From: Limisphaerales bacterium
Lineage (GTDB): Bacteria; Verrucomicrobiota; Verrucomicrobiia; Limisphaerales; UBA8199
Assembly: GCA_003152225.1 (NCBI GenBank)
Contig: PLZQ01000314.1
Span: forward strand, 8,030-40,039
Direction of reading: 5' to 3'
DNA: 32,010 nucleotides
The notes beneath the pieces were generated by a model, which did not search any database, had not been told where the DNA came from, and worked only from the letters and a program-made list of their open reading frames with translations. Shown here piece by piece: positions 6,222-28,657 of the stretch. The translations under genes and the position numbers were made by a program. The number at the start of each line of letters is the position of its first letter. The first letter of the stretch is position 1.

Positions 6222-7247
6222 TCAAGCTGCCTGACGCAGGTAGCGATGGTGCAGGCCACCAACCAAGGGCAACTCGATGACTTTGCCGCAGTCGGGTGAT
6301 TCGACCGGCCGTGGCACTGGACTGTCGTGGTCAAGCGATCGATGCGGGCGGGCGTGGTGATAATATTCAACGTAGGATTCCAGAACACGCCTCAACTGCC
6401 GTTCATTGAGCACGATCACTCGATCCAGGCATTCTCGCCGGATTGAACCAACCAGTCGCTCGACGTAGGGGTTTTGCCAAGGTGACCTCGGGGAGATCAA
6501 CTTCTGCTTGATGCCCATGCCCACAACCCGCTGCACGAACACCGATCCGTAGATCGAATCGCGGTCCCGCAACAAATATTCGGGGGCAGTGTCGTAAGGG
6601 AACGCGTTGATGATCTGTTGGGCGGTCCACGCCGCCGTTGGTGCATCAGTAACGTTGAAGTGAACGATTTTGCGCCGTTCATGGTTCATGACGACCAACA
6701 CGTAGAGCAGACGAGCGGTCACCGTCGGAACCACAAAGAAATCCATTGCGGCAATGCCACCCGCATGGTTCTGGAGAAAGGTCCGCCAACTCTGTGACGG
6801 TAGGCGTCTGGACCTGGGGCGATACTTTCGGATCGTCGCGGTGGACGCTTGCAAACCCAGCTTGGCCAGTTCGTCGCGGATGCGCGGACTGCCCCAGGTC
6901 GGGTTGACGCTCCACATCCGGCGGATGAGCTGGATCAATTTCCGGTCCTTCCCAGGTCGACCACGCCGTCGGCTTGACTTCCATCGCCAGAACATTCTGA
7001 ATCCGGCTCTTTGCCAGCCAATGACGGTCTCGGGGCGGAAGATCATCAACGGGGTTCTCCAATTCGGCCAAACTCTCTTGAGTATCATCCAGAGACATCG
7101 GTCCCACGGGCGAAGCTTCGGCCTGTGCGTGCGCCGTTTGAGCGCCGTGATTTGGTGTCGCAGCGCCAGATTTTCCATAGCCAGTTCGTGCTGAGGTCGG
7201 AGCAAGGACAATGGGTAGATCACAACCATCCGGAGAAATTCAAACAT
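6222..7247 (-). CDS. IS transposase, rve/DDE integrase-core type
   Basis: 341 residues from ATG 7247; an in-frame TTG at 7283 would add 12 residues. The N-terminal part (LSLLRPQHELAMENLALRHQ, then RTHRPKLRPWDR) is a helical DNA-binding region. The catalytic core carries Asp169 in IAAMDFF, Asp228 in LLRDRDS and Glu263 in NPYVERLVGSIRRE, with 34 residues between the last two, as in the DD(34-35)E group of IS3/IS481-like elements. It mediates cut-and-paste or copy-out of its element. Only one transposase frame is present, with no upstream OrfA. I could not find terminal inverted repeats or a target-site duplication, so the element's limits are unknown. The frame is intact and may be active. Confidence 0.9.
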   Translation of the reverse strand: MFEFLRMVVIYPLSLLRPQHELAMENLALRHQITALKRRTHRPKLRPWDRCLWMILKRVWPNWRTPLMIFRPETVIGWQRAGFRMFWRWKSSRRRGRPGKDRKLIQLIRRMWSVNPTWGSPRIRDELAKLGLQASTATIRKYRPRSRRLPSQSWRTFLQNHAGGIAAMDFFVVPTVTARLLYVLVVMNHERRKIVHFNVTDAPTAAWTAQQIINAFPYDTAPEYLLRDRDSIYGSVFVQRVVGMGIKQKLISPRSPWQNPYVERLVGSIRRECLDRVIVLNERQLRRVLESYVEYYHHARPHRSLDHDSPVPRPVESPDCGKVIELPLVGGLHHRYLRQAA

Positions 7248-7414
7248 GCCGCCACAGCTTGCTCGCAAGTCACCGCCAATCAAGCATTTCGATTCTTGAC
7301 GGAGTTTCTGCCACCCTCAGCTATGGCCTTGTTCCCGGATTCCGACCAACGGATCGAACACATCATGCCCATGCTGAACAGTCGTGATTATTGCACAGAC
7401 GCAGCCTGAACGCA

Positions 7415-7493: not shown

Positions 7494-8219
7494 CTAACCG
7501 GTCCCGCGGCTTGCCGATCGCTCCGCCGGTGGAAGCCCCGCCCGGAGTGGATGCTTTCCGAACTTGGCCGCGGCCTCAGCGCGAGAGTGGACGTGCAGCT
7601 TCTCGTAGATTCGACGGCCGTACGTGGTCACCGTGGCGAAACTGACGCCCAGTGTGTCGGCAATCTCCTTGTAGAGATAGCCGCGGCTGAGCAGCTCCAG
7701 CACTTCCCTCTCCCGGTCGGAAAGCGCGGCCCCCTCAGAAGGGTCGGCCGGCCGCTGATGAAAGACCTGGACGACTTTGCGGGCGATGGGCCCGCTCATG
7801 GGCGAGCCGCCCTCGTGAACTTGTCGGATGCCGGCCAATAGATCTTCGCGCGGCGTGTGCTTCAACAGGTAGCCCGCCGCACCTGCCGAAAGCGCCTCGA
7901 AGATGCGATCGGCATCCTCATAAACGGTGAGCATGAGGAACTGGGTGGCCGGCAAGAGCGGCTTGAGCCGGCGGACGCAGTCGATGCCGCTTTGGCCGGG
8001 CAGATTGATGTCCATTAATACCACGTCCGGCGCCTCCCGGGGCAAGGCCGCGATGGCGCTCTCCGCGTCGGCAAACCGGCTGACCAACTGGAGATCGGCA
8101 GCGTGGCTTAACCAATCGGCAAAGATGCGCCGCGCCCGGGCATCGTCTTCAACTAAGGAAACCCTGATCGTCACGCCCTTAGATCTAGCATCCCCGGTCG
8201 TTTTTGGCTTGTCACTCAT
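7494..8219 (-). CDS. NarL/FixJ-type response regulator
   Basis: 241 residues. The receiver domain (about 17-135) has the acidic pair in LVEDDARA, phospho-acceptor Asp70 in VVLMDINLPG, Thr98 and Lys120 (GYLLKHT). A LuxR-type helix-turn-helix spans about 165-225 (LSDREREVLELLSRGYLYKEIADTL, VSFATVTTYGRRIYEKLHVHSR). It is a phosphorylation-controlled cytoplasmic transcription factor. Its ATG overlaps the stop codon of the kinase gene (TCAT on the plus strand at 8216-8219), so the two are translationally coupled and almost certainly partners. The last 20 residues (LPPAERSASRGTG) look unstructured. Targets are unknown; the palindromes flanking the operon are candidates. Confidence 0.95.
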   Translation of the reverse strand: MSDKPKTTGDARSKGVTIRVSLVEDDARARRIFADWLSHAADLQLVSRFADAESAIAALPREAPDVVLMDINLPGQSGIDCVRRLKPLLPATQFLMLTVYEDADRIFEALSAGAAGYLLKHTPREDLLAGIRQVHEGGSPMSGPIARKVVQVFHQRPADPSEGAALSDREREVLELLSRGYLYKEIADTLGVSFATVTTYGRRIYEKLHVHSRAEAAAKFGKHPLRAGLPPAERSASRGTG

Positions 8220-11200
8220 CTATGCGACAAAGCAGCGCTCAGGGGCGCAACGAAACGCACGCGGGTGCCGAGGCCGTATTGGCTCTGGATTTCGCAATAC
8301 CCGCCAATCTGCTCCAGCCGGCTGCGCATGTTGGGCAGACCGTGGCCTGTGAGCAGCCGGGCAGCCGGCTCGCCCGCCGGCGCGGGGACGCTCGCAGGCT
8401 GGCCGCAGCGGAAGCCGCGGCCGTTGTCTTCGACCATCAGCACGAAATTGCCAGCCTCGACTTTCAGGGAGATACGCACTTCGGTGGCCGCGGCGTGCTT
8501 GGCCACATTGTGCAACGCCTCCTTGAAGGCAAGGAACACATTGTGTCGGACTTGCGAACTGAGCGGCAGCTCAGACACCTGTGCGGGTAAATCCAGGCGG
8601 CAGCGCAGCCCGGAGGCGCCGGCGAAATCCTGGGCGAACGTGCCGAAGTAGGTGGCCACGCTGTCCAGCGAATCGTGCCTTGGGCTGACCGCCCAGACGA
8701 CTTCCTCCATGGCGCGCGTCAGTTCACGCGCCGTGCCGTAAATCTGGCCCAGATCGCCATTCGCCGGCGACGAGTCTTCCAGCTTCTCGCGCGCGGATTG
8801 GCTGAGCATGGTGATGTGCGTGAGGCTGGCGCCCAGATCGTCGTGGATGTCTTTGGCGATGCGGGACCGCTCCTGCTCGAGCGCGTGCTGGCGCTCCAAC
8901 TCCTCCATCCGGCGCCTCGCCTTGCGCACGGTGACGAATCGCGCGGCCGCGGCCGCCGTGCCCAGGCCCAGCAGCGTGGCGCCTATTTGAAACCAACGCG
9001 TTTGCCAGAAGACGGGCAACATCCGAATCACCAACGCGGCTCCAGCCTCGTTCCATACGCCGTCGTTGTTACAGGCCGTCACATGGAAGACGTAATCCCC
9101 GGGCGGCAGATAACTATAACTAGTCGCGCGTCGCGTACCGCCTTCCACCCACTCCTCGTCCCATCCCTCCAGCTTCCAACGGAACCGTACTTGGTCGGGC
9201 GCCGTAAAGCTCAGGCCGGTGAATTGGATCTCCAGGTGATGCCGGCGGGCTTCCGCCTCTACCAGAGGTAGGGTGTTCGCGGCGGCGGCGGCCCCGGGGC
9301 GGTTCTTCCTGACCATGGCGCAGGGCTGTCCAGCCACGCGGACTTCCTCGATCACTACCGGCGGCGGGAGGGAGTTAAAGGGTAGCTCGTCCGGCTGGAC
9401 GGAGACGACGCCCTTGGCGGTCGTAAACCACAACCGGCCCCCGGCATCGCGCCACGCGGCTGGCTGAGAACCTCCGGAACATTCGATGGTGGGCAAGCCG
9501 TCCGACTTGCCGTAAGTGATGCACGGCACCGACGCCAGTTCGCCGCGCGCGAAGCGATTCAGCGCGTCTTTGCTCACGCGCGCGATGCCCGCGCGGGTGC
9601 CCAGCCAAAGGTGGCCACGCCCGTCTTCGAGAATCTGGCTGATGTATTCACTCGGCAGGCCATCCCGCGGCAGGTAACGGGTGAACACTCCCTCCCGGAA
9701 GCGCAGCAAGCCACCGCCCAAGGTGCCGACCCACAGCACGCCGTCACGGTCCGGGTGTAGCGCCCAAAAGCGCTCACGTCCGGACAAGGGCCGCGGTGGC
9801 GGCGGGTCGGCTGTTGAGTTCGGTCCTGGCGGCTGGCTGGCAATGTCAGTTTGGCGGAAGGTGGCAAAGGTGCCATCCTGGTAACGCCTGAGATCTCCGC
9901 CGGCGGTGCCAAACCAGAGGGCGCCCCGGTCATCCTCGGCAATGGAGACGATGTAGGCAGCCGCAAAGCCGTCGGCCGGCGTGAGTTTCCTGAGCGTCCC
10001 CCCAGCCCAGCAGAACAGCCCTTGCGGGTTGCCGATCCAGAGCGCCCCGCTCCGGTCTGTGAACAGCGCGCGCACCACGCCGCGGATGTCGGCGGGTGGA
10101 AATGGCCGGCGGAAGGTGTTGCTCTCGACCAGCCACAAGCCGTCGCCCACGGAGCCGACCCAAACCCCGCCCCGGTTGTCCGGGCATACGGTTATGTCCT
10201 GGCCCGCCGCCGCATTGGTTGGGGGCTGGCAAACCGCCAGATTGCCGTCGCGCCAGCGAAAGCAGCCGCCGTCCCCGGTGCCAAACCACATCGCGCCCGC
10301 GGCATCCTGGCACACGGAAGTAACTGCTCGCGTCAATGATTCCCCGCCAGCCCTGACGGTGTGGAAAGCGGCTGGCCGCAACCTCACCAGTCCGCTGCCG
10401 GTCAACCCGGCCCAGACATTGCCCTCATGGTCCTGAAACCAACACTCCATCACGCCACTGGGCAAGCCCTCCTGCTTCCCGACGCGCGTTACCCGGCCAC
10501 TCGCGGCGACATGCCAGAACCCAGCCTCATAGTGCGCCAGCCAGACCCCGCCACGGCCGTCGTCCTGCATCTCCAGTTCCACCGATGGCCCAAGCTCCTG
10601 AAGACGCGCATCCTGGAATTCGGCCTCGGCAACCCATCCCCGGCCAGCGCACTTCCGCAACTGGGTTTGGGTGCGCACCCACAGGCTGCCATCTCCGGCA
10701 AACGCCAAATGTTGCACGGTGATGACTGGTTCCCCGTTGGTCGGCGTCTGGTTCATGAAACGCCCGCCATCCCAAGCCGCTAGTTCCCGCTCCGTGCCGA
10801 CCCAGACGCGGCCTCCAGGGTCGCAGGCCAACCGGTTCACCTGCAAGCCGCTCAAACCGCAGTTAGTGGGAACGCGAACGAATTGCGCCCCGTCGAACCA
10901 TCCCAACCACCCGTCCCGCGTTCGATACCAGATGCGCCCCTGGCTGTCCTGACAGAACGTGCTGCGGTAATTCGCATCCGGCGCCTCAAAGGATGCCCAG
11001 CGGTTCGTTCCCGCTGCGCCGCGCCAGCGCCAAAGCGTGCCGCCCACCGACGCCAGCCACGCCTCCTGCTCACTGGCGGCGACGACCGAACTCAGCCACC
11101 CGGCGGGTGGCAGACCGCTCGGCAGTTCAAAGCGGAACCGGCCATTGCGGCAGGACATCAGCCCCCCCTCGTTCGCGCTAATCCAGAGCGTCCCCTGCGG

Positions 11201-11542
11201 GTCCACGCGCAGCCGTTGGATCGTGATCGAGCTGAGCTGCGGCGTATTGCCTGGGTTAAAGCAGACAAACCGCTTCCCATCAAACCGCGCCAAGCCGCCG
11301 TGGTGGGTGCCGACCCACAGGTAGCCGTCGGGCGTTTGGGCGATGCTGGTGACGGTGCTGTGCGGCAATCCGTCGTCCACGCCCCACGTTTCGACCAGGT
11401 AGTTCTGCTCGACTGCGTCTGCTGCCGCGCCGATCGGCAACGCTCCCGCCGGCCAGCCGGCAAGAGCTAACGCAACATATCCGATGGCAGGCCATCTCAG
11501 CACTTCGACGCTATTATTAACGACATTCACCCCACAAGACAA
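8216..11542 (-). CDS. Giant sensor histidine kinase with two-component propeller and Y_Y_Y domain
   Basis: 1108 residues. After an N-terminal hydrophobic stretch (IGYVALALAGWPAGALPIGA), residues about 50-750 hold many Reg_prop repeats of the form GxLWxGT/GGVWVGS, which build two beta-propellers in the periplasm. A Y_Y_Y domain follows (QFTGLSFTAPDQVRFRWKLEG to SYLPPGDYVFHV), then one membrane segment near 851-869 and a short coiled coil (RRRMEELERQHALEQERS). The HisKA_3 dimerisation domain has phospho-His900 in IAKDIHDDLGASLTHI. The HATPase has the N box FKEALHNVAKHA (about 1006-1017) and the G boxes VEDNGRGF and GHGLPNMRSRL. Proteins of this design sense extracellular glycans in Bacteroidetes hybrid systems; here the regulator is a separate, overlapping gene. 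The start at 11542 is the longest; a later start near the hydrophobic stretch is possible. Confidence 0.93.
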   Translation of the reverse strand: MSCGVNVVNNSVEVLRWPAIGYVALALAGWPAGALPIGAAADAVEQNYLVETWGVDDGLPHSTVTSIAQTPDGYLWVGTHHGGLARFDGKRFVCFNPGNTPQLSSITIQRLRVDPQGTLWISANEGGLMSCRNGRFRFELPSGLPPAGWLSSVVAASEQEAWLASVGGTLWRWRGAAGTNRWASFEAPDANYRSTFCQDSQGRIWYRTRDGWLGWFDGAQFVRVPTNCGLSGLQVNRLACDPGGRVWVGTERELAAWDGGRFMNQTPTNGEPVITVQHLAFAGDGSLWVRTQTQLRKCAGRGWVAEAEFQDARLQELGPSVELEMQDDGRGGVWLAHYEAGFWHVAASGRVTRVGKQEGLPSGVMECWFQDHEGNVWAGLTGSGLVRLRPAAFHTVRAGGESLTRAVTSVCQDAAGAMWFGTGDGGCFRWRDGNLAVCQPPTNAAAGQDITVCPDNRGGVWVGSVGDGLWLVESNTFRRPFPPADIRGVVRALFTDRSGALWIGNPQGLFCWAGGTLRKLTPADGFAAAYIVSIAEDDRGALWFGTAGGDLRRYQDGTFATFRQTDIASQPPGPNSTADPPPPRPLSGRERFWALHPDRDGVLWVGTLGGGLLRFREGVFTRYLPRDGLPSEYISQILEDGRGHLWLGTRAGIARVSKDALNRFARGELASVPCITYGKSDGLPTIECSGGSQPAAWRDAGGRLWFTTAKGVVSVQPDELPFNSLPPPVVIEEVRVAGQPCAMVRKNRPGAAAAANTLPLVEAEARRHHLEIQFTGLSFTAPDQVRFRWKLEGWDEEWVEGGTRRATSYSYLPPGDYVFHVTACNNDGVWNEAGAALVIRMLPVFWQTRWFQIGATLLGLGTAAAAARFVTVRKARRRMEELERQHALEQERSRIAKDIHDDLGASLTHITMLSQSAREKLEDSSPANGDLGQIYGTARELTRAMEEVVWAVSPRHDSLDSVATYFGTFAQDFAGASGLRCRLDLPAQVSELPLSSQVRHNVFLAFKEALHNVAKHAAATEVRISLKVEAGNFVLMVEDNGRGFRCGQPASVPAPAGEPAARLLTGHGLPNMRSRLEQIGGYCEIQSQYGLGTRVRFVAPLSAALSHR

Positions 11543-12017: not shown

Positions 12018-12079
12018 CATCTTAACCCGAAACCCAAATGAAGAACCGTATGAAAACACAAACCAGTAGAAATCACATT

Positions 12080-15000
12080 ATGAAAACCATGAAGAGAATA
12101 AAAATAATCGCCGCTATACTGGCCCTGACCGGTCTCGTTGGCGGGAGCGCCTCGGCGGCAGACTCCATCAACGTGGCCAACCCGAGCTTCGAGCAGGATG
12201 GCCCTCTGGTCTATCCGGGCTATGGGACGCCGATCGGTTGGGCCGCCTCGGGTGGTCCGGGCATCAATGATGCGAGCGGCCCGTTCTGGGATAATGGCGC
12301 GATCGTGGACAGCACCTATGTCTGCTTTATTCAGGGCAACGGATTATTGGGGCAGGGCACGACCGGCTATCAGGTGGGGGAAACGTATTGGATTCAGCTT
12401 TTCGTCAATGCACGAACGGGCCCGACCACCCCTACTCTGACGGTGTATAACGCGGCGAGCACTGCGGGAGGTGCCGCGCTGGTTTCGGACATCAACGTCA
12501 CACCGGTGGGGGGAGGGAATCCGTTCACCTTCATCAACGTTCCTTTCACGGCGGCGGCGACGAGTGGCGACTTGAACTTCGCGAAGGGTGGTGTCGGTGA
12601 CAACACGCTCCTGCTTGACGGCATTTCGATCATCCGCCGTTCGACCAACGACATTGTAATTGCCAACCCGAGCTTTGAAGCTTCCGGCACGGGGCAGGCA
12701 GGCGTTGGGGTGGTGGGCGCGGTTGCCGGCTGGACTCTCTCCGGGGCGGGCGGGCCGCCCCTCATCAACCAGACGGGTGGACCTTATCTCAACAGCGGCG
12801 AAGTGGTGCCGGATGGCAACAACGTGCTCGTCATTCAGGGTGTGTGTGCTTACAGCCAGACGTTGCACGGCTTGACCCCGGGTCAAAATTACCGGCTCAC
12901 GCTCTATGTCAACGGTCGCAGCGGCGATGTGCCCACAGCGCTCATCACGATTGATGGCAATACGGCTTACAATGCGCCGGTGCCGCAGTTGGGCAGCAGC
13001 CCTTTTCAACTCATCAGTTATGACTTCATCGCCTCGGCCGCGGACGTGACGCTGTCCATCGGCCAAACCACCGGCACCTCGTATTTTGTGGACGACGTGC
13101 GCGTGGCCGTTCAAGGCCCGCTGTTACCTCAGGCGAGTATTCTCAACTTCGGGACCAACGTTGCCGGGAGCAGTGCCGTTATTGGCCCGGTTGTTGCCCA
13201 CGCGGCCAGCATCGCCTGGACCGTGCCATACGGGACGGTTTTGGCGAACCTCGCGCCCAGCTTCACGCTGTCCTCCGGGGCAACGTGCAATCGAACCAGC
13301 GCTGCCATCCCCACCCCGAACTTCGGTGCCGGCCCGGTGGCTTACACCGTCATCTCGTCGGATTCGTTGATCACCAACGTCTATACCGTGACGGCCACCT
13401 TGGCCGACCAACCGGGGACCTGGACCTACAGCGCGTGGACGGGCGACGCGGATTCAGGAATCACCAACGCCTCCTTTTACCCCGTGGCCGTGAACTGTAA
13501 CGGATCTGCGGTAACCGTGAACGGGGTTGCCTTCCAGGCCTCGGCCCTCTCTGGGGCGAACTTTTCGATCAGCGGAGCCGTTTCCACGTTCGTCAACGGT
13601 GCCCCCAACATCACCGGTGACAGCTTGACGCTGGCTTCCACCTTCATCTACGACGGGAAGCCCCGCACCGTGACCCTTACCCATCTCACGCCAGGGGTGC
13701 CGTATGAGACGACCTTTTTCTCCTACGGATTTGATGCCGTTGGCCGCATCCAGACTTTCGCGTCCGGCAGCGATAGCCTCGAGCTGGATCAGGATTTTTA
13801 CGGTGCGCAAAAGGGCATCCGGATTTCTTACACGTTTGTCGCCGGCCCGTCTGGCTCGAAGGTATTGACGATCACCCCAGTTGGCGGCAGCGGCTCATTC
13901 CACATGTGTGCGCTGGCCAGCATGATGTTCGCCACCGAACCGCAGATTATCTCCCAACCACAGCCCGTGACGACCAATTACGGCGCGAGCGCAACATTCA
14001 CTGCCGTCGTCCAAACGACGAATCCCCCGCTGGCTTACGCTTGGTACAAAGGCTCGACCCTGCTGGCCAATGGGCTGCAAGCTGGCGGCAGCACGGTGGG
14101 CGGCGCTCAGGGAACTGATTCGGGCAGTTCATTGACCGCGACCTTGACTCTGATCAACGTTTCTTACCAGGACGATGGCAGCTACAGCCTGTTTGTGACC
14201 AACAATGCTAACAACTTCGTTTCCACTATTCCCGCAACGCTTACCGTCAACGACCCTTATATTGTGACTCAGCCGCCGTTCACGGTAGTGGTGCCGGTGG
14301 GAGGCGCCACGACTATCCCGGTCGTGGCGGCCGGATCAGGCCCGGTTACTTATCAATGGTACAGCACCAGTGCGGGCCAACTGAGTGACGGCGCGCACAT
14401 TTCCGGCTCACACACGGCAATTCTGACAATTACCAATGCGCAGCCCAGTGACGGGGCAAGTTATTATGTGGTGGCCAATGGGGCCAGCGGCTCTTCTGTG
14501 CAAAGTTCGAATGAGATCGTTTATGTTGAGAGCACTCAACTCGGGCCGTTCGGCCCGAGCGATTGGCCACCCTCCGTCGCGCCCAGCGGGATAGTGGACT
14601 ATGCTATTTTCGATCCGAACAATTCTTTTGCCCCCCCGCCAGGCTGGAACAATGTTATGAGCTTGACTCCCAGCGATGGCGACCAAACGTTCGTGGGGGT
14701 GACTTACGGTGGCCTTTTCGGAAATGACGGTACGAGCGTCTATTTCAACTTTATTGACCCTAACTGGGCGAGTTTTGCCAATGTTCCGGTCATTGACATT
14801 TTGATGCAAGTGTATGGGAACTCTGCCATCTACAATGCCGACGGCACGGGGCTGAGTATCACGTTTCAAGAGGGCCAAGTGGGCTATGGTCACAACGTCA
14901 GTAGAATCGTTCCACAAGGCGCGAACAATGGCGAATGGAATTGGATATTGTTCGAGATACCCAACCCCATCAACCCTTCGACCGGCTTTCGCTATGTCGG

Positions 15001-16489
15001 CGACACTTCGCATGCGACCCAATCCGACGGCACGTACGGTGGGGTCAATGGCGGAACCATCCGCTGGTTTGGCGGCAATGGCAGCGTTAACGGAATCACG
15101 ATTCGCGCGGTTGCTGTGGGGCCGCAAGGGGCATTCGGGAGCACAAACCAGGTCAACCGATTCGCGACCCCCACCAATTGTCCGTCGGAGCCGAATGTGA
15201 ATCTGGCCTACGTTGACTTCAACAGCGGTGTTACCAACCACTTGACCGTGTTAACCAGCGACAACTTGGGCGAGCCTTTAGGCTATAACCTTCAAAGCGG
15301 GGTCGGCCCGGCGGGTGACCTTCGCACTGCCATACAATCCAGCAGCTACCTGATGAATTTTGCCATTCTTAGCAATTATTTGGGCCAGCCTTGCAATCCG
15401 GCGCTCACCATGCAGCTTTGCGTCGAGTTTTATGATGATCCCAGCTTGGCCGGGTCAACCTTTGGCCCGTACCAGTATGCCACGGATGCTCAGGGTGACC
15501 TGGCGAATTACGGCGGCAGCCCTTATAGGATGACGGGAAGCGGCCGGTGGTTGAAAGTCGCTTTCTACCTTGGGCCGGTGTGCCTGGAAGGGGTTGGCAC
15601 GGCACCCCTGACCGGCGGCCCGACAGTGATCTTCAACGGGAATCTTCCTTACATCGACCGCGTGGAACTCGGTGTTATTCAGCAGGGAACGAATGCCCTC
15701 GCCGGATTGACGCCGGATCCGAGCTATCATATGGATCCGTTCATTTGCGACACCAATTACGGCTATTATGCGGAGTGGAATCCCAGCGCTGGCGTCACCA
15801 ACAACGTGGATGTCGCCCCTGGTTATGCCACCGTTCTGGCGGGTCCCAGTTATGACCTCCGCCTCGCCGAAAGAGCGAATTTGGCTGCGCCCGGGGTTTA
15901 CTACCTCCAGTTTGCGCTGCTGAACAATGTGTTTGGCCCCGCCCTGCAGGATAACGCCGACGTGACCATGCTGGTGACCTATTACGATGATCCGGCTCTG
16001 GTAGGCGCCCAGATATTTCCCAATGTCTACCAAACGTGGATAGACGGGAATTCAAGCCCCATCAATCCATCGGCGCCGTACAATGTTCCTGTCACCTTAC
16101 AGGGAAGCGGCCAGTGGAAAGACGCGTATTTTGAGCTTCCGAACGTGAACTTCGTGCCGAATTCTGTGTGCAGATACGCCACATATTCGAGCGCCCCAGT
16201 TTATGTCTCACGCGTTCGGTACGACGTTATCCGCCCCTGTGGTCCCTTCGAGGGGATCAACTATCTGCAGACGCTCCGCATCACCGGCACCAGCACAAAT
16301 GTGAACGTCAACTGGTTTGGAACGGCCGCGCTGCTATCCGCTCAAACCGTGGCGGGGCTGTACAGCAGCCTAGTGACAGTCACGAATACCGTGACCAATA
16401 CTTACACGCCGGCGACGACGAAGAACGCCGAGTTCTTCCGGCTGCAATACCCCGGATATCCTCCCTACCTGAGCACAAATCGACCTTGA
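12080..16489 (+). CDS. 1469-residue secreted modular binding protein
   Basis: I chose ATG 12080 because it starts directly before the signal peptide (MKTMKRIKIIAAILALTGLVGGSASA); ATG 12038 and 12050 are in frame and possible. Module order, with approximate residues: two related jelly-roll domains, each opening with ANPSFE (31-190 and 194-343); a small beta domain ending NVYTVTATLA (345-445); a domain of unknown type (445-618); two Ig-like domains (IISQPQPVTTNYGASATF, 621-727; IVTQPPFTVVVPVGG, 727-817); an unassigned region (820-1030); two tandem copies of an unnamed domain (1037-1213 and 1214-1405); and a short C-terminal beta module ending EFFRLQYP. No catalytic site is recognisable. It probably binds glycans or acts as a cell-surface adhesin. 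A strong hairpin lies 13 bases after the stop. Confidence 0.85.
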   Translation: MKTMKRIKIIAAILALTGLVGGSASAADSINVANPSFEQDGPLVYPGYGTPIGWAASGGPGINDASGPFWDNGAIVDSTYVCFIQGNGLLGQGTTGYQVGETYWIQLFVNARTGPTTPTLTVYNAASTAGGAALVSDINVTPVGGGNPFTFINVPFTAAATSGDLNFAKGGVGDNTLLLDGISIIRRSTNDIVIANPSFEASGTGQAGVGVVGAVAGWTLSGAGGPPLINQTGGPYLNSGEVVPDGNNVLVIQGVCAYSQTLHGLTPGQNYRLTLYVNGRSGDVPTALITIDGNTAYNAPVPQLGSSPFQLISYDFIASAADVTLSIGQTTGTSYFVDDVRVAVQGPLLPQASILNFGTNVAGSSAVIGPVVAHAASIAWTVPYGTVLANLAPSFTLSSGATCNRTSAAIPTPNFGAGPVAYTVISSDSLITNVYTVTATLADQPGTWTYSAWTGDADSGITNASFYPVAVNCNGSAVTVNGVAFQASALSGANFSISGAVSTFVNGAPNITGDSLTLASTFIYDGKPRTVTLTHLTPGVPYETTFFSYGFDAVGRIQTFASGSDSLELDQDFYGAQKGIRISYTFVAGPSGSKVLTITPVGGSGSFHMCALASMMFATEPQIISQPQPVTTNYGASATFTAVVQTTNPPLAYAWYKGSTLLANGLQAGGSTVGGAQGTDSGSSLTATLTLINVSYQDDGSYSLFVTNNANNFVSTIPATLTVNDPYIVTQPPFTVVVPVGGATTIPVVAAGSGPVTYQWYSTSAGQLSDGAHISGSHTAILTITNAQPSDGASYYVVANGASGSSVQSSNEIVYVESTQLGPFGPSDWPPSVAPSGIVDYAIFDPNNSFAPPPGWNNVMSLTPSDGDQTFVGVTYGGLFGNDGTSVYFNFIDPNWASFANVPVIDILMQVYGNSAIYNADGTGLSITFQEGQVGYGHNVSRIVPQGANNGEWNWILFEIPNPINPSTGFRYVGDTSHATQSDGTYGGVNGGTIRWFGGNGSVNGITIRAVAVGPQGAFGSTNQVNRFATPTNCPSEPNVNLAYVDFNSGVTNHLTVLTSDNLGEPLGYNLQSGVGPAGDLRTAIQSSSYLMNFAILSNYLGQPCNPALTMQLCVEFYDDPSLAGSTFGPYQYATDAQGDLANYGGSPYRMTGSGRWLKVAFYLGPVCLEGVGTAPLTGGPTVIFNGNLPYIDRVELGVIQQGTNALAGLTPDPSYHMDPFICDTNYGYYAEWNPSAGVTNNVDVAPGYATVLAGPSYDLRLAERANLAAPGVYYLQFALLNNVFGPALQDNADVTMLVTYYDDPALVGAQIFPNVYQTWIDGNSSPINPSAPYNVPVTLQGSGQWKDAYFELPNVNFVPNSVCRYATYSSAPVYVSRVRYDVIRPCGPFEGINYLQTLRITGTSTNVNVNWFGTAALLSAQTVAGLYSSLVTVTNTVTNTYTPATTKNAEFFRLQYPGYPPYLSTNRP

Positions 16490-22255: not shown

Positions 22256-22483
22256 GCCCTTGGTTTCTAAATGCCATTGCGCAACTATGCCAAGGCCGTG
22301 TGCGTTACGATCAACAAATCTTTGGCTTCTTCCAACCGACATTCGGTGATTAAGCCTGTTGGCGTAGCCGCACGCATGGTCATGGCGCAGATTAGGAAAA
22401 AGGCACTGCTGGAAGTTGCGGTCGTGGTTCTTTCCTTGGTGGAATGCCTTTTCCTGTGCCAATGGATTCCGACGCGTTGAATC

Positions 22484-22488
22484 AGGAG
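22484..22488 (+). promoter_or_regulatory. Ribosome binding site AGGAG for the gene at 22497
   Basis: AGGAG lies 8 bases before ATG 22497. It decides this start over an in-frame codon at 22416 that would place 27 extra residues before the signal peptide. Confidence 0.75.
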
Positions 22489-22496
22489 TTAAGCTT

Positions 22497-25319
22497 ATGA
22501 AACTATGTCGCAGTTGTCTGGTAGGAATGGCCTTGGTGGTGGCGAGCGGTTACTCATTCGCCAGTGACGAGCCGTTGGGAATCGAGCGAGTCGCTCGGCT
22601 GGCAAAACCGGGCTACCAATGCACGGCCCTGCGAGATGACGAAGCGCTCTGGGTTCAGGTGGACTTGGGCCGGGAACTGCCGATCGACCAGGTAAAATTG
22701 CTTCCGGCTGTTTCCGTCATCGGAGAACAGCAGGGCTATCCATTGCGATTCAGGATCGAGTCATCCACGGATGAGCCTTTCAGCACGCCCACATTGATTG
22801 CGAGCCAGACCGACGCGGATGTGGCGGATCCCGGAGACAAAGTCGGCGTATTTGCCGCCCGTGGGATTAAGGCGCGCTACGTCCGCCTGACGGCAACGAA
22901 GCTGCGCGAGAAAGTCCTCTGGCTTGCCAAGCTAGAAGTATGGTCTGGCGGCCAGGAAGTCGCCCAGCGATGCCCCGCTTCAGACTCGCGGCGCGGCAAT
23001 CTGGGGGTGACCTTGCTCACGCGCCCGGCCCGTCCGCAGGGTGAATATGTGGTCACGGACAATCCTGCGAACATGATTCCGGCAGCCAAATGGAAGCCGG
23101 TCCGGTTGAAAGCGCACGCGCCAGTGGTCGGCGTAAGAATGGAAGGCGGGGTTCTCAAACAGGCTATGGAGAACAACATTGGCTATCTGCTGGCGACCGG
23201 CACGCCCGATCAGCTTCTGAAGTATTTCCGGGACCGCGCCGGCAAGCCAAACCCACCGGGCACTAAAGTGCCCGACGCCTCCTGGGAACACGAGCTGACG
23301 GGTTCCTACGCGGGACGGTTTCTGATGGGAGCCGGCTCGACGCTGCGCTTCATGGAGCATGCGGAACTGCGCAAACGATTAAACCAGGTCGTAAACGGAA
23401 TCGAGGAGTGCCGGCGCGATGACGGCTATATCATGGCCTATCCAGACGACACGATATTCTACAATGAACGCGGCTGCTACACGCGTTCTTGGGTTACGCA
23501 GGGCCTCATCGAGGCGGGCCGCTCGGGAAACGAGAAAGCATTTCCACTGCTGCGCGGATTCTACGATTGGTTCGACCAGGCGCCGTTTCTGCCCGAACTC
23601 CTTCGCCGGGGAGGTTTCGGCATTCAGGGGTTCGTGGCGAGCACGCTTCTTTACTCCACCCCTGCGGGAGACCCGAAAGATCTGCTGATCGGCCAACGCT
23701 ACTTTCAGGAGAACTACTGGCTTGATCGGCTCGCGCGGAAAGACCCCACAGCCATTTGGCGCTATCCTTACAGCCACCCGCACAGCTACTTGCTGACAGC
23801 GGTGGAGCCTTATCTCGATCTTTACCTGGCGACTGGCCAGCCCCGTTACTTGAAGGCTGCCGAAGGCGCCTGGCAATTGTACCACGAAAATTGGGAGCAC
23901 ATCGGCGGCAGCATCGCCATCTGCGAAGGGTCCACATTCCCTCCAAAGTCCTACGTATTGACTCGCAATACCGGCGAACTCTGCGGCAACACTTTCTGGG
24001 CGCGCTTCTCGGAAAGATTCCATCTTCTGAATCCGGAGGACGAGAAGTATCCGGCTGAAATCGAGAAGTCGATTTACAACGTCGCTCTTCCCAACCAGGC
24101 CACTTCATCCATCCGTTATACCGCAAAGCTGGTCGGCAAGAAAGTGCAGGGCGGCACCTACAATAGTTGCTGCGAAGGGCAGGGAACCCGGTTTTATGGG
24201 ACGATGCCTGAGTACGTGTATTCAATCGCCGACGATGGCCTCTACGTGAACCAGTTTGCCGCGTCCTCCATACACTGGAAACAGAACGGCCATGATTTAG
24301 AGGCGCGCATGATCACCGACTTTCCGTTCGGGTCTAAAGTCGAGTTGCGGGTTTCGCCTGCCCAGCCCGTGCGAAGTGCCATTCGCGTGCGAGTTCCCGG
24401 ATGGGCGCCGCATGACGTGGCATTCGTGATGAACAGAAAGACCATCGCTACGGGCAAACCCGGCCAGTACATTACCCTGAACCGCACATGGACGGCTGGC
24501 GACGCTGTGTCATTCGAACTGCCACTTGCATTCAAGCTGACCCGCTACACCGGGATGGAGGAAGTGGCCGCAGGCGGGCGATATGCGCTGGAGTACGGAC
24601 CGATCCTCATGGCGCTTACGGGGGGAATGGAAAATGCCGCCGGCACCATTCCGCTGGCTCTGAACCCGGACGCCCTTCTCGAGACGCTGATGCCGATCCC
24701 CGGAATGCCACTGCATTTTGCTATCAATGGGGATCCAAAACTCAAATACATTCCTTACTGGGAAGTGGCCGACGAGAACTTCACATGCTTCCCAGTACTC
24801 ACGGCAACTTCGGCCTCCCCGACAGCGCAGCCGGGCCAAGGCAATCTTGCGTTGGCAAGCCTTGGAACAACTGTCACGGCGGACAGCGAATTGGCGACAG
24901 AACGTGGCTGCACAGCACAGGCGATTGACGGCATCATCGCCTCTGAGGGACACCCATTCAACCGTTGGCACGCGTCCGTGGATACCACAAATCCTCACTG
25001 GATTCAGGTCAAACTGCACAAGCCCGAACGTATCGGCCGCGTGGTGATCCGTTTCGCGAAGGATCCTCTCGGATACCCGTTGTCCTTTCAAGGGCTCATC
25101 GGAACGGACAAGGCCGACAAGGTATTGTTCGACCAGTCTGACTATCCAGACTGGAAAGGATTCGAGTTGTCTTTTCCTCCGGTCACAGCCGATACATTCC
25201 GTCTCGTCATACGAGAGTCAGCCAACCTTCCATGGCCGAGATGGAGCAATCACGTCTCCGCAGCCCAGATAAGCGAGATCGAGTTGTACCACCCGGTGTC
25301 CGAGAAAAAGAAGTCATAG
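22497..25319 (+). CDS. GH127-like beta-L-arabinofuranosidase with two F5/8-type C domains
   Basis: 940 residues; the start is set by AGGAG and by the signal peptide CLVGMALVVASGYSFAS. Residues about 25-150 form a discoidin (F5/8 type C) domain. Residues about 165-770 are a GH127 (former DUF1680) alpha/alpha barrel with C-terminal beta domain. The zinc/cysteine site known from Bifidobacterium HypBA1 is matched by Glu494-x-Cys496 (GELCG) and Cys558-Cys559 (NSCCEG), where the second-pair cysteine is the nucleophile; Glu477 is a candidate acid. A second discoidin domain occupies about 785-935. The enzyme class releases L-arabinofuranose; the secreted form with two carbohydrate-binding modules suggests action on an intact polymer. 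GH78 starts 50 bases downstream, so one transcript is likely. A 28-base block of the C-terminal domain recurs exactly at 30360-30387. Confidence 0.85.
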   Translation: MKLCRSCLVGMALVVASGYSFASDEPLGIERVARLAKPGYQCTALRDDEALWVQVDLGRELPIDQVKLLPAVSVIGEQQGYPLRFRIESSTDEPFSTPTLIASQTDADVADPGDKVGVFAARGIKARYVRLTATKLREKVLWLAKLEVWSGGQEVAQRCPASDSRRGNLGVTLLTRPARPQGEYVVTDNPANMIPAAKWKPVRLKAHAPVVGVRMEGGVLKQAMENNIGYLLATGTPDQLLKYFRDRAGKPNPPGTKVPDASWEHELTGSYAGRFLMGAGSTLRFMEHAELRKRLNQVVNGIEECRRDDGYIMAYPDDTIFYNERGCYTRSWVTQGLIEAGRSGNEKAFPLLRGFYDWFDQAPFLPELLRRGGFGIQGFVASTLLYSTPAGDPKDLLIGQRYFQENYWLDRLARKDPTAIWRYPYSHPHSYLLTAVEPYLDLYLATGQPRYLKAAEGAWQLYHENWEHIGGSIAICEGSTFPPKSYVLTRNTGELCGNTFWARFSERFHLLNPEDEKYPAEIEKSIYNVALPNQATSSIRYTAKLVGKKVQGGTYNSCCEGQGTRFYGTMPEYVYSIADDGLYVNQFAASSIHWKQNGHDLEARMITDFPFGSKVELRVSPAQPVRSAIRVRVPGWAPHDVAFVMNRKTIATGKPGQYITLNRTWTAGDAVSFELPLAFKLTRYTGMEEVAAGGRYALEYGPILMALTGGMENAAGTIPLALNPDALLETLMPIPGMPLHFAINGDPKLKYIPYWEVADENFTCFPVLTATSASPTAQPGQGNLALASLGTTVTADSELATERGCTAQAIDGIIASEGHPFNRWHASVDTTNPHWIQVKLHKPERIGRVVIRFAKDPLGYPLSFQGLIGTDKADKVLFDQSDYPDWKGFELSFPPVTADTFRLVIRESANLPWPRWSNHVSAAQISEIELYHPVSEKKKS

Positions 25320-25369: not shown

Positions 25370-28300
25370 ATGAGCATCTCCACCCGCCTCGTATTGTGTC
25401 TGCTGGCCTGGCTGTTTGCTGCCGGCCAGGCCGAAGCCGGCAAGATGTCGGTCAAGAGCCTCCGGTGCGAATACCGGACTGATCCGCAGGGCATCGATGT
25501 CCGGCAACCCCGCCTGGGCTGGCACATTGAGGCGGACGGACGCGCGCAGGCACAGTCAGCTTACGAGGTGCTGGTTTCGAGTACCCGGCCGGGTCTGGCC
25601 GCAGACCAGGGCGACCTATGGGAGAGTGGCCGGGTCGAATCCGGCCAGTCCGCGCACGTCCTTTATGGTGGCGCGGCCTTGAAGTCGCGGCAGCGCTGCT
25701 ACTGGAAAGTGCGGGTCTGGGACCAGGCGGGACGATCTTCGAACTGGAGCCCGCCCGCCGCATGGTCGATGGGCCTGCTCGAGGCGGCGGACTGGAAGGC
25801 CCGCTGGATCGGGCTGGACGGCGGCGAGAACCCCGACCACTTCGCTAACGCTCGCTGGGTGTGGTCCTCTGACGACCCGAAACCGGAGGCCGGGAACGGC
25901 CCGCGACCGCGCCATTTCCGGCGAGCTATCAGTCTGCCAGCCGACCGCGAAGTGCTGGGAGCGCGCCTCACCATCGCCGCGCGGGGCGTCTTCTCGGTAC
26001 GGGTCAACGGGCGCGAAGTCCGCCGGGGCTCAAAAACCGTATTCGTGCCGGCGTCCGAGGTGGACCTGGAGCCGTTCCTTCAGCCCGGCACGAACGTCAT
26101 CGGCATCGTCACCACCCCATCCGATAATAAAGCGGAGCCGCCCGGGCTCCTGTGCGCGTTCTCGGCGGAGTTCGACGCGGGGGATCCACTGGTGGTCCGC
26201 TCCGACGCAGCCTGGAAGGTGTCCGCAACGGTCCCGGAAGGCTGGGACCGGCCGGGCTTCGACGATTCGGCCTGGGCGGCAGCGCAGGATCGGGGCTCGA
26301 ACGACCCGTCGGTTGCCAACCGTATCATCGGCGACGACTACCGGCGGCTCCCGGCCCGGATGTTGCGCCGCGAGTTTAGTTTGGACCGGCCCGTGGCGCG
26401 CGCCACCGCCTACTTGTGCGGCTTGGGGCTTTCCGAACTTTGGATTAATGGTCGGAAAATTGGCGACCGCGTGCTCTCACCGGGCCTGACCGATTACCAT
26501 CGGCGCTGCCTGTACGTCACCTGCGACGTCACGGAGAATCTGCGGCCCGGCGCCAACGCCCTGGGTGTCATCCTGGGCAACGGGCGCTACTTCGCACCCC
26601 GCAAGAGCGCCCCCACCACCACATTGTCTTACGGATACCCGAAACTGTTGCTGCAACTGGAGATCGAGTATGTCGACGGCACTGCCGACACTGTGGTGAG
26701 CGACGGGTCCTGGAAACTGACCACAAACGGGCCCATCCTGGCCAACAGCGAATATGATGGCGAAATCTACGATGCCCGACGGGAGATTCCCGGCTGGGAC
26801 CGGCCCGGCTTCAATGAGGCTGGCTGGACGACGGCCAGGCTCGTCGAGGCGCCGAAGGGCGTGTTGAGCTCGGAGATGGCCGAGCCCATCCGTGTGATGG
26901 AACGGATCCGCCCGGTGGCGGTGACAAACCCGCAGCCGGGCGTGTGGGTGTTCGACATGGGCCAGAACATGGCCGGCTGGTGCCGGCTTCGGGTCAAAGG
27001 CCCCCGCGAGACGCGGATCTTCCTGCGGCACGCCGAGACGCTGCGCAGTAACGGGAGCCTCAACATCGACAATCTGCGCTCCGCCAAGGCGACCGACGCA
27101 TACACGCTCCGGGGCGGGGGCTCCGAGGAATACGAGCCCCGGTTCACCTACCACGGCTTTCGCTACGTGGAGGTCACCGGCTATCCCGGACGGCCGGCGC
27201 TCTCTGCGCTGGAAGGCCGAGTCGTGCATGACGCCGTCCCACGCTCCGGCACGTTTGCGTGTTCCGAGGATCTGGTTAACCGCATCTACCGCAACATGGT
27301 CTGGGGCATCCGCGACAACTACCGCAGCCTGCCCACCGACTGCCCACAGCGGGACGAGCGGCAGGGGTGGTTCGGCGACCGGGCGCAAGTGTCGCGAGGA
27401 GAGATGTACGTCTTTGACACCGCCGCGCTGCACACCAAGTGGGTCCGCGACATGGAAGACTCGCAGCGGGAAGACGGCAGCCTGCCGGACTTGGCGCCGG
27501 CGTACTGGAGCTTCTACACGGGCAGCATCACCTTTCCCACGGCGGCCTTCGCGATCCCCGGGCACCTCCACGACCTGTACGGAGACCGGCGCATCTTGCA
27601 AAACCACTACGACTGCATGCGCAAGTGGGCCGATCTGACGGCCGGCCGGCTGTCAGGTGATCTCCTTCCGGCCGACACCTATGGCGACTGGTGTGTGCCA
27701 CCCGAATCCCTGGACCTGATTTGGTCGGCCGACCCGGCCCGCGTGACCGACCGAGTTCTGGTGGCCAACGCCTACTATTACAGCGACCTGTGCATGCTGG
27801 CCCGCTACGCGGCTCGGCTCGGCCGGGACGACGACGCCCGGCGCTACAGCGGGATTGCGAACCGGGTCAAAGCGGCATTTAACGCGAAGTTCCTCAATCG
27901 CGAGGCCGGCCTTTATGCCAACGGGACCCAAACCTCGGCGGTGCTGCCGCTCGCGTTCGGCCTGGTGCCGGAAGACTGTCGGGCGCGGGTGTTCGCCAGC
28001 CTTGTGGACAATATCGTCCGCAAGACAGACCTCCACGTGGGCACGGGCATGATCGGTGGCCAGTGGCTCCTGCGGGTGCTCTCCGACAACGGCCGGCCGG
28101 ACTTGGCGTGGAAGTTGGCCGCGCAAACCACCTATCCGAGTTGGGGCTACATGGTCGCGTCCGGCGCCACCACCATCTGGGAGCTTTGGAACGGCGACCA
28201 CGGCGATCCGCTGATGAACTCCGGCAACCACGTAATGCAGATCGGCGACCTGTGCACGTGGTTGCACGAATACGTGGCCGGTATCGCGCCCGATGAATCC

Positions 28301-28657
28301 AGCCCCGGATTCCGGCACGTGCTCATGCGCCCGCGCGCGGTGGGCGAACTCGCGTGGGCGCGCGCCTCGCACGTGTCATTGTACGGCCCGATCGCTAGCG
28401 AGTGGAAAACGGCCGCCGGACGATTCGAGTGGCACATCTCGCTTCCACCCAACACCACGGCCACAGTCTTCGTGCCGGCGCAGGACCTGCGGGAGGTCAC
28501 CGAGAGCGGCCGGCCCGCTGACAGAGCCGACGGCGTCCGTTTCGTGCGCATGGAGGGCGACCGCGCAGTCTTCGAGGTAGGCTCGGGTCGTTACGCGTTC
28601 GCATCGCCGTCTGCCGCCAGTCGCACAACACCCACCAGAACCAAGAGATTGCGATAA
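25370..28657 (+). CDS. GH78 alpha-L-rhamnosidase
   Basis: 1095 residues with a signal peptide (RLVLCLLAWLFAAGQAEAG). The GH78 layout is complete: N-terminal beta domains with RLGWHIEADGRAQAQSAYEVLV and AARGVFSVRVNGREV, the rhamnosidase N domain with YVTCDVTENLRPGANALGVILGNGRY, the concanavalin-like domain with PGVWVFDMGQNMAGWCRL, then the six-hairpin catalytic domain with the signature PTDCPQRDERQGWFGD at about 655-670 (acidic residues 657, 662, 663 and 670). The C-terminal beta domain ends near GRYAFASPS. The enzyme removes terminal L-rhamnose with inversion; pectin side chains or flavonoid rhamnosides are known substrates of the family. A large minus-strand open frame inside it is an artefact of high GC. 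Likely co-transcribed with the GH127 gene. Confidence 0.95.
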   Translation: MSISTRLVLCLLAWLFAAGQAEAGKMSVKSLRCEYRTDPQGIDVRQPRLGWHIEADGRAQAQSAYEVLVSSTRPGLAADQGDLWESGRVESGQSAHVLYGGAALKSRQRCYWKVRVWDQAGRSSNWSPPAAWSMGLLEAADWKARWIGLDGGENPDHFANARWVWSSDDPKPEAGNGPRPRHFRRAISLPADREVLGARLTIAARGVFSVRVNGREVRRGSKTVFVPASEVDLEPFLQPGTNVIGIVTTPSDNKAEPPGLLCAFSAEFDAGDPLVVRSDAAWKVSATVPEGWDRPGFDDSAWAAAQDRGSNDPSVANRIIGDDYRRLPARMLRREFSLDRPVARATAYLCGLGLSELWINGRKIGDRVLSPGLTDYHRRCLYVTCDVTENLRPGANALGVILGNGRYFAPRKSAPTTTLSYGYPKLLLQLEIEYVDGTADTVVSDGSWKLTTNGPILANSEYDGEIYDARREIPGWDRPGFNEAGWTTARLVEAPKGVLSSEMAEPIRVMERIRPVAVTNPQPGVWVFDMGQNMAGWCRLRVKGPRETRIFLRHAETLRSNGSLNIDNLRSAKATDAYTLRGGGSEEYEPRFTYHGFRYVEVTGYPGRPALSALEGRVVHDAVPRSGTFACSEDLVNRIYRNMVWGIRDNYRSLPTDCPQRDERQGWFGDRAQVSRGEMYVFDTAALHTKWVRDMEDSQREDGSLPDLAPAYWSFYTGSITFPTAAFAIPGHLHDLYGDRRILQNHYDCMRKWADLTAGRLSGDLLPADTYGDWCVPPESLDLIWSADPARVTDRVLVANAYYYSDLCMLARYAARLGRDDDARRYSGIANRVKAAFNAKFLNREAGLYANGTQTSAVLPLAFGLVPEDCRARVFASLVDNIVRKTDLHVGTGMIGGQWLLRVLSDNGRPDLAWKLAAQTTYPSWGYMVASGATTIWELWNGDHGDPLMNSGNHVMQIGDLCTWLHEYVAGIAPDESSPGFRHVLMRPRAVGELAWARASHVSLYGPIASEWKTAAGRFEWHISLPPNTTATVFVPAQDLREVTESGRPADRADGVRFVRMEGDRAVFEVGSGRYAFASPSAASRTTPTRTKRLR

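Follow-up and report, generated by a model that had tools for sequence, protein, structure and literature searches.

The locus

The window, meaning the whole 32,010-nucleotide stretch of DNA that was analyzed, contains on its + strand a gene (12038-16489) for a secreted protein of 1483 aa counted from the first ATG, or 1469 aa counted from Met15. The protein consists, in order, of a signal peptide, identified by eye at the N-terminus and with Ala-x-Ala at its end, two HpiC1-like stretches, two Ig domains, a block of three domains referred to here as N-A-B, and a C-terminal tail of about 75 aa. Upstream of N-A-B, Ig_3 (E 1.8e-18) and HpiC1-like (E 1.1e-11) models of Pfam each match two stretches, the stronger HpiC1-like stretch lying at 12650-12928. 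No catalytic domain was recognized in this protein with Pfam.

Domain N (14534-15178) is a probable third, divergent copy of the two domains that follow it, as judged from AlphaFold, VIA, and hhalign. Domain A, the first copy (15179-15745, 189 aa), and domain B, the second copy (15746-16267, 174 aa), were both recognized by blastp, profile comparison, and predicted fold. The C-terminal tail (16268-16486), about 75 aa long in most relatives, is without a Pfam match in the window protein. All of these features lie on the + strand. Two cysteines are invariant in A (module residues 216 and 287, at 15179-15181 and at 15392) and two in B (residues 405 and 569, at 15746-15748 and at 16238), in 44 of 44 aligned sequences; each pair could form a disulfide. 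Module residue numbers count from window position 14534.

The gene is flanked by regulatory and carbohydrate-active genes. A Reg_prop/Y_Y_Y histidine kinase (8216-11542, - strand) is transcribed divergently from it, next to a LuxR-type response regulator (7494-8219, - strand). Downstream are a GH127 beta-L-arabinofuranosidase with F5/8-type-C domains (22416-25319, + strand) and, 9 kb from the N-A-B gene, a GH78 alpha-L-rhamnosidase (25370-28657, + strand). Further neighbors encode an esterase with a ricin-type lectin domain, a PA14/LamG protein, and a xylose-isomerase-like TIM barrel; neither SusC nor SusD was found among the 13 window neighbors scanned. An integrase-core (rve_3) transposase-type gene (6222-7283, - strand) lies inside the polysaccharide cluster. 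The frame at 156-1514 (+ strand) encodes a GH59-like protein with a partial domain, in which only profile positions 165-294 are matched and the front half of the catalytic domain is missing.

Sequence relationships of the three domains

A preliminary description of this DNA had pointed to two related copies at the C-terminal end of the protein. The peptides on which it relied are in place in the + strand gene, FAILSNYLG at 15359, ALTMQLCVEFYDDP at 15401, and MTGSGRWLKVAFYLGPV at 15530 in the first copy, and FALLNNVFG at 15911, DVTMLVTYYDDP at 15959, and LQGSGQWKDAYFELPNV at 16097 in the second. A and B are homologous: blastp aligns them with 28% identity over 136 aa (E 1.5e-11), and comparison of profiles with 44 members each gives 99.9% (E 1.7e-34), against 1.2% for A and reversed B. 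The 44 aligned modules are distinct sequences covering more than 500 of the 580 profile positions; a broken copy (L004, L005), a frame that begins inside A (L040), and two enzyme-type proteins were left out. Across these sequences the proposed YYDDP...GSGxW signature is well conserved, with D301, D302, G335, G337, and W339 invariant in A and Y483, D485, G524, and W528 invariant in B. The tandem was thus correctly seen, but the unit was drawn too small, as N, which lies directly upstream and has the same kind of predicted fold, was overlooked, and single relatives are found on glycoside hydrolases.

N itself has many invariant residues in the 44 sequences, among them D50, D75, D88, R177, and R191. 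With 44 rows, hhalign scores N against A at 65% (E 6e-5) and N against the glycoside hydrolase-linked relatives at 66% (E 5.8e-5), with reversed controls at 0.3% and all reversed and unrelated controls below 2%; N against B stays at control level (0.9%). Earlier comparisons with four or five sequences had given 0.1 and 0.6% for N against A and B, and 0.8% against A+B together. Since N and B still score 0.9% with 44 rows, the proposal that N is a third, divergent copy homologous to A and B, which we regard as likely, draws on the fold and a middling profile score.

Searches of family collections returned nothing useful. The last 650 residues of the window protein have no useful Pfam match (best DUF4313, E 0.32), NCBIfam gave none for the protein, and PHROGs none for A or for B. 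Of the 44 module sequences, at most two are matched by any one Pfam or NCBIfam model, the best E values being 0.099 for Pfam and 0.0085 for NCBIfam, the latter in one member. Models of carbohydrate-binding modules (CBMs), including CBM22 (CBM_4_9 type), match neither the window protein (E up to 1) nor any of the 44 members, and the same is true of the CBM_35 and CBM_6 profiles. Against the PDB, phmmer with the letters of A+B produced chance matches only (best E 0.47), and the 44-row profile produced none. The absence of a named family is therefore upheld at the sequence level.

N-A-B recurs in secreted proteins as a single unit, about 580 residues long. The usual protein is about 670 to 750 aa long, with a tail of about 75 aa after B in most of the 44, and a crude rule finds a hydrophobic stretch ahead of N in 41 of 44. 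In the window protein this plan is enlarged by HpiC1-like and Ig domains on the N-terminal side; the proteins of L045 and L047 are likewise enlarged, with an Ig-like stretch ahead of N seen by eye. The N-A-B protein of locus L131 has a weak HpiC1-like stretch, under the cut-off, C-terminal of the module. A pattern search found a lipobox-like pattern in just one of the 44 N-termini, which argues that the N-A-B protein is probably not a lipoprotein of the Bacteroidota type.

Predicted fold

The AlphaFold model of N-A-B, made from the 44-row alignment, is mostly beta, with a mean pLDDT of 90.0 and a pTM of 0.75. Its best PDB match by Foldseek is 4xup, the CBM22-1/CBM22-2 tandem of Xyn10C (E 6.4e-11), and the surface glycan-binding protein SGBP-B (7kwb) is matched with E 4.3e-6. 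By VIA, A (about residues 222-396) and B (about 404-576) match CBM22, CBM35, CBM29, and a pectate-lyase binding domain with Z 8 to 10. Examples are, for A, the pectate-lyase domain 8x8h (Z 9.1) and 4qb1 of the CBM35/CBM6 group (Z 8.5), and for B, the CBM35 structure 2w47 (Z 9.3), 2w1w of the CBM35/CBM6 group (Z 8.9), and the CBM22 structures 1h6x, 1dyo, and 4xuo (Z 8.7 to 9.0). A+B together align to 4xup with Z 10.0 over 274 residues and an rmsd of 19.4, from which the orientation of the two domains is taken to differ. No structural family was ruled out through absence from the VIA matches listed. In the model, A and B adopt the beta-sandwich known from CBM22, CBM35, and CBM6.

Modeled alone, N reaches a pLDDT of 92.4 and a pTM of 0.91. 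Its best Foldseek match is PP2 phloem lectin (E 1.1e-4), and its best VIA match is BT0996-C (7zvo; Z 8.7, 123 residues, 3.2 A), followed by the CBM22 structures 1h6x and 1dyo (Z 8.2). In VIA, models that match nothing clearly typically still reach Z 7 to 8 at best, so these values are modest, barely over background, and the matches of N to the CBM35/CBM6 structures 2w87 (Z 7.3) and 2cdp (Z 7.4) lie inside that range.

The suggestion that the tandem represents a new kind of domain is not borne out, as the predicted fold is the common one of the CBM22/35/6 type. Neither copy belongs to a described family by sequence, as had been proposed, but by fold both match CBM families. N-A-B is a sequence family without a name, and its modules are of a known kind. 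Protein-binding and structural domains, such as meprin MAM, reelin, and toxin receptor-binding domains, are also among the Foldseek and VIA fold matches, and the presence of the toxin and meprin domains in the same match lists means that the fold by itself is no proof of sugar binding.

Distribution

N-A-B is found nearly entirely within one order of Verrucomicrobiota. In the window's order, 62 of 320 genomes have a match to the A+B profile, or 58 once G314, G332, G337, and G515 are dropped, where proteins other than N-A-B are matched: GH42-like ones in three of the four, and in G337 a piece of an enzyme-type protein at a contig edge. In a class-wide draw searched with the module profile, 18 of 384 genomes match; 17 belong to the window's order, and four of the matches are partial. 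A phylum-wide draw searched with a single sequence gave three of 288 genomes, the window's own genome and one chance match included. The candidate L008 (G244, E 7.9e-4) was rejected as a chance match, since the longer stretch L074 is without a match. Among relatives of G004, two of 96 genomes match, namely G004 itself and one with enzyme-linked domains only.

An alignment-based contig scan yielded 23 loci in named assemblies from 64 stretches; the scan with a single sequence had given 27 stretches, none confirmed. All 23 assemblies are metagenome-derived, 20 labeled Verrucomicrobiota (two of these "subdivision 3", one Limisphaerales, and one Pedosphaera), two "bacterium", and one Planctomycetota. 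Viral contigs gave 31 pattern matches, none of which was confirmed by tblastn; this lends no support to a phage origin.

The window's genome harbors three intact N-A-B copies (contigs C434, C135, and C57). It also contains a broken fourth paralogue (L004/L005, G000:C19), with a 400-aa frame across part of A and a fragment of B about 2 kb further on, at the contig end. In L040, on a 43-kb contig (G606:C37), a 388-aa frame starts inside A and comprises the end of A and B, without N.

Recurrent gene partners

Gene neighborhoods were compared in 60 loci, the window and L075 to L133, in some of which the contig ends near the gene; L045 to L067 were excluded, as they mostly duplicate contigs of L075 to L133. 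Greedy gene calling misplaced a gene in L082, and partner counts were therefore taken from all-frame profile searches. Three recurrent partners, which never overlap, account for 35 of the 60 loci, and the remaining 25 have none; in 27 of the 35 the neighbor is of carbohydrate-active type.

The most frequent partner is a GH99/DUF5010-like gene, found beside N-A-B in 23 of 60 loci; the two genes are head-to-head in 22 of these (for example in L079, L082, and L087) and converge in the other one. Complete matches among these neighbors carry a domain of the A/B superfamily. The linked neighbors in L068, L079, L081, and L087 score under the Pfam cut-off for Glyco_hydro_99, and those in L068 and L081 score over the cut-off for DUF5010, a family of which no mention was found in the GH99 literature looked at. 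The profile of the GH99-like enzymes aligns NEYHEGT to NEWHEGT of the endo-alpha-mannosidase 4acy (E 4e-5), and the ExxE block is thus present; E296 and E299, which we take to be the catalytic residues, are invariant in 17 rows. In the window's order, 23 of 49 GH99-like enzyme matches sit on an N-A-B contig, where the 49 are matches reaching the catalytic part, contig-edge pieces included (one of 68 positions), after 20 rows covering only the accessory end were dropped. Across the 320 genomes, 31 have both N-A-B and the enzyme, 27 N-A-B only, 16 the enzyme only, and 246 neither (Fisher 6.7e-16 for co-presence, uncorrected for kinship and with an enzyme profile built from linked genes).

The second partner is a CotH-type gene that adjoins N-A-B on the same strand in eight of 60 loci (L076, L089, L093, L096, L108, L114, L117, and L132), upstream in seven and downstream in one; Pfam identified three of these, and a profile built on the three identified the rest. 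The three Pfam-scanned neighbors match CHB_HEX and Fn3_assoc, and in two a Lamin Tail Domain is matched as well, once under the cut-off.

The third partner, a PF12708 rhamnogalacturonase-like gene, lies directly 3' of N-A-B in four of 60 loci (three by Pfam, the fourth by a profile from those three), all of the window's clade. GH78 is found near N-A-B in three of 60, two of which are among the three intact loci of the window's genome. In a tree of the 44 modules, this clade comprises nine sequences, the window's included, on one side of a branch with support of 100/100. Either PF12708 or GH78 is nearby in six of the nine clade loci and in none of the other 51, a contrast (Fisher 1.7e-6) that is a pattern rather than a test, since the clade was named after its neighbors had been seen and the profiles come from these loci, and that is further limited by stretches of unequal length (the window spans 32 kb, the others at most 18 kb) and uncorrected kinship. 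On contig C57, genes for PF12708, an oxidoreductase, and GH78 come after the N-A-B gene, and in G544 and G545 PF12708 lies immediately behind it. The other three clade loci (L131, L124, and L084) have neither GH78 nor PF12708, and the neighbor at L131:3385-5403, on C135, matches no Pfam family. No GH99-like or CotH partner was found in the nine clade loci.

Related single domains on enzymes

A profile derived from N-A-B gives weak matches to domains on GH99-, DUF5010-, and GH42/GH14-like enzymes. The reverse profile, made from the enzyme-type domains with zero N-A-B sequences, reaches B of two N-A-B genes (E 6.9e-10 and 7.0e-9) in a search of 96 genomes at a cut-off of 1e-8. In the window's genome its sole matches at E up to 0.01 are the three N-A-B genes (E 1.5e-4, 5.6e-4, and 7.2e-4). 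It further reaches GxGYxYP putative glycosidases, one two-copy protein, and one Ser/Thr kinase. By hhalign, the accessory domains on verrucomicrobial GH99/DUF5010-, GH42-, and GxGYxYP-type enzymes score 93% to A and 97% to B, and they share the YxD...GxGxW pattern of both. Unlike N-A-B they are mostly single copies; in the proteins scanned, they too are without a Pfam match. Movement among catalytic scaffolds is typical behavior of binding modules. GxGYxYP proteins are described as often bearing known binding domains (PMC4071793).

Possible function

The homology of A and B, the predicted fold of the three domains, the recurrence of the block, the fusions, and the gene linkage were all obtained by computation. 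The binding role put forward in the preliminary description is still the best reading of the fold, the fusions to glycosidases, and the gene linkage. The N-A-B protein is probably a secreted, non-catalytic, multivalent glycan binder of CBM type that would capture substrate for neighboring enzymes, the substrate in the window's clade probably being pectin. We infer glycan binding, ligand, and avidity as follows. Each of the galactose-binding-like sandwiches would present one glycan site, and three sandwiches in a row could give avidity for a polysaccharide chain, holding the substrate, or the protein itself, near the enzymes encoded alongside. The likely target in the window's clade would be pectin, perhaps rhamnogalacturonan, and that in the other clade the substrate of the GH99-like enzyme that bears a domain of the same superfamily.

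A broader proposal, which we put forward only tentatively, is that N-A-B represents both a new family of carbohydrate-binding modules and, in Verrucomicrobiota, a protein for substrate capture that would take the role of an SGBP without a lipid anchor or SusCD. Its two deep clades would be tuned to different polysaccharides, rhamnogalacturonan-type pectin in that of the window and the target of the GH99-like enzyme in the other, each with its own enzyme gene. No mention of the module was found in the titles and abstract openings of the papers listed, which is not proof of absence.

It is also conceivable, if rather unlikely, that the sandwiches have a structural role or mediate adhesion between proteins, acting as spacers or as binders of host or envelope proteins. 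The meprin MAM, reelin, and receptor-binding domains have the same fold, and in the window copy N-A-B is fused to Ig and HpiC1-like domains; however, relatives of A and B are attached to several unrelated glycosidase scaffolds, and the neighbors in the 35 partnered loci are mainly of carbohydrate-active type. We give less weight still to the idea that one sandwich is itself an enzyme, such as a lyase or hydrolase with a jelly roll, akin to HpiC1 or the polysaccharide lyases. The beta-sandwich is known from some carbohydrate-active enzymes, and N has many invariant residues, D50, D75, D88, R177, and R191 among them, but among the matches listed the best structural ones are mainly binding modules, and the linked loci already encode enzymes. 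That N-A-B is a client of the adjacent secreted CotH-type kinase, with the glycan link secondary, is very improbable, since the same-strand CotH linkage at eight loci is far less common than the GH99-like linkage and no CotH-type gene lies near the window copy or the other eight clade loci.

A secreted glycan binder of this type has precedents among known binding modules. The CBM22 tandem of Xyn10C from Paenibacillus barcinonensis (4xup) consists, like A+B, of two consecutive beta-sandwich CBMs, at about 10% identity. In contrast to Xyn10C, N-A-B has three modules, no recognized catalytic domain, and no Pfam CBM match; CBM22 in Xyn10C sits on a xylanase (PMC12016534). The same paper describes CHU_1279 as an SGBP-B-like bimodular cellulose-binding protein, which its authors liken to the Xyn10C CBM22 tandem (PMC12016534). 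As described there, CHU_1279 resembles N-A-B in being a hypothetical-type protein with tandem CBM-like sandwiches whose gene lies in a polysaccharide cluster; it is an outer-membrane protein of a member of the Bacteroidetes, whereas N-A-B has three sandwiches, and the two are likened by architecture and fold. With SGBPs in general (SusE/F, SGBP-B), N-A-B shares tandem non-catalytic CBM-like sandwiches encoded in a polysaccharide gene cluster, but, by the pattern search described above, lacks their lipoprotein signal. BT0996-C, the best VIA match of N, is reported in PMC9843283 to be a CBM35/6-like module binding polygalacturonic acid, the pectin backbone, and, unlike N, to be one module of a large RG-II enzyme; at 8% identity to N, its ligand is not transferable.

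Subdivision-3 Verrucomicrobiota are common polysaccharide degraders of soil and water with many unnamed secreted proteins. A compact, recurrent three-domain module with enzyme partners would offer a testable handle on what these bacteria bind. N-A-B would give annotation a new CBM family, and its partnership flags an uncharacterized group of GH99/DUF5010-like enzymes. Related domains were also seen in two other frames. A 586-aa frame at L162:789-2546 (+ strand) contains two copies of the enzyme-type accessory domain, with no Pfam match. At L152:1501-3438 (- strand), an A/B-related domain lies behind a Ser/Thr protein kinase domain, an arrangement that suggests sensing rather than digestion there, perhaps with the domain as an extracellular glycan sensor.
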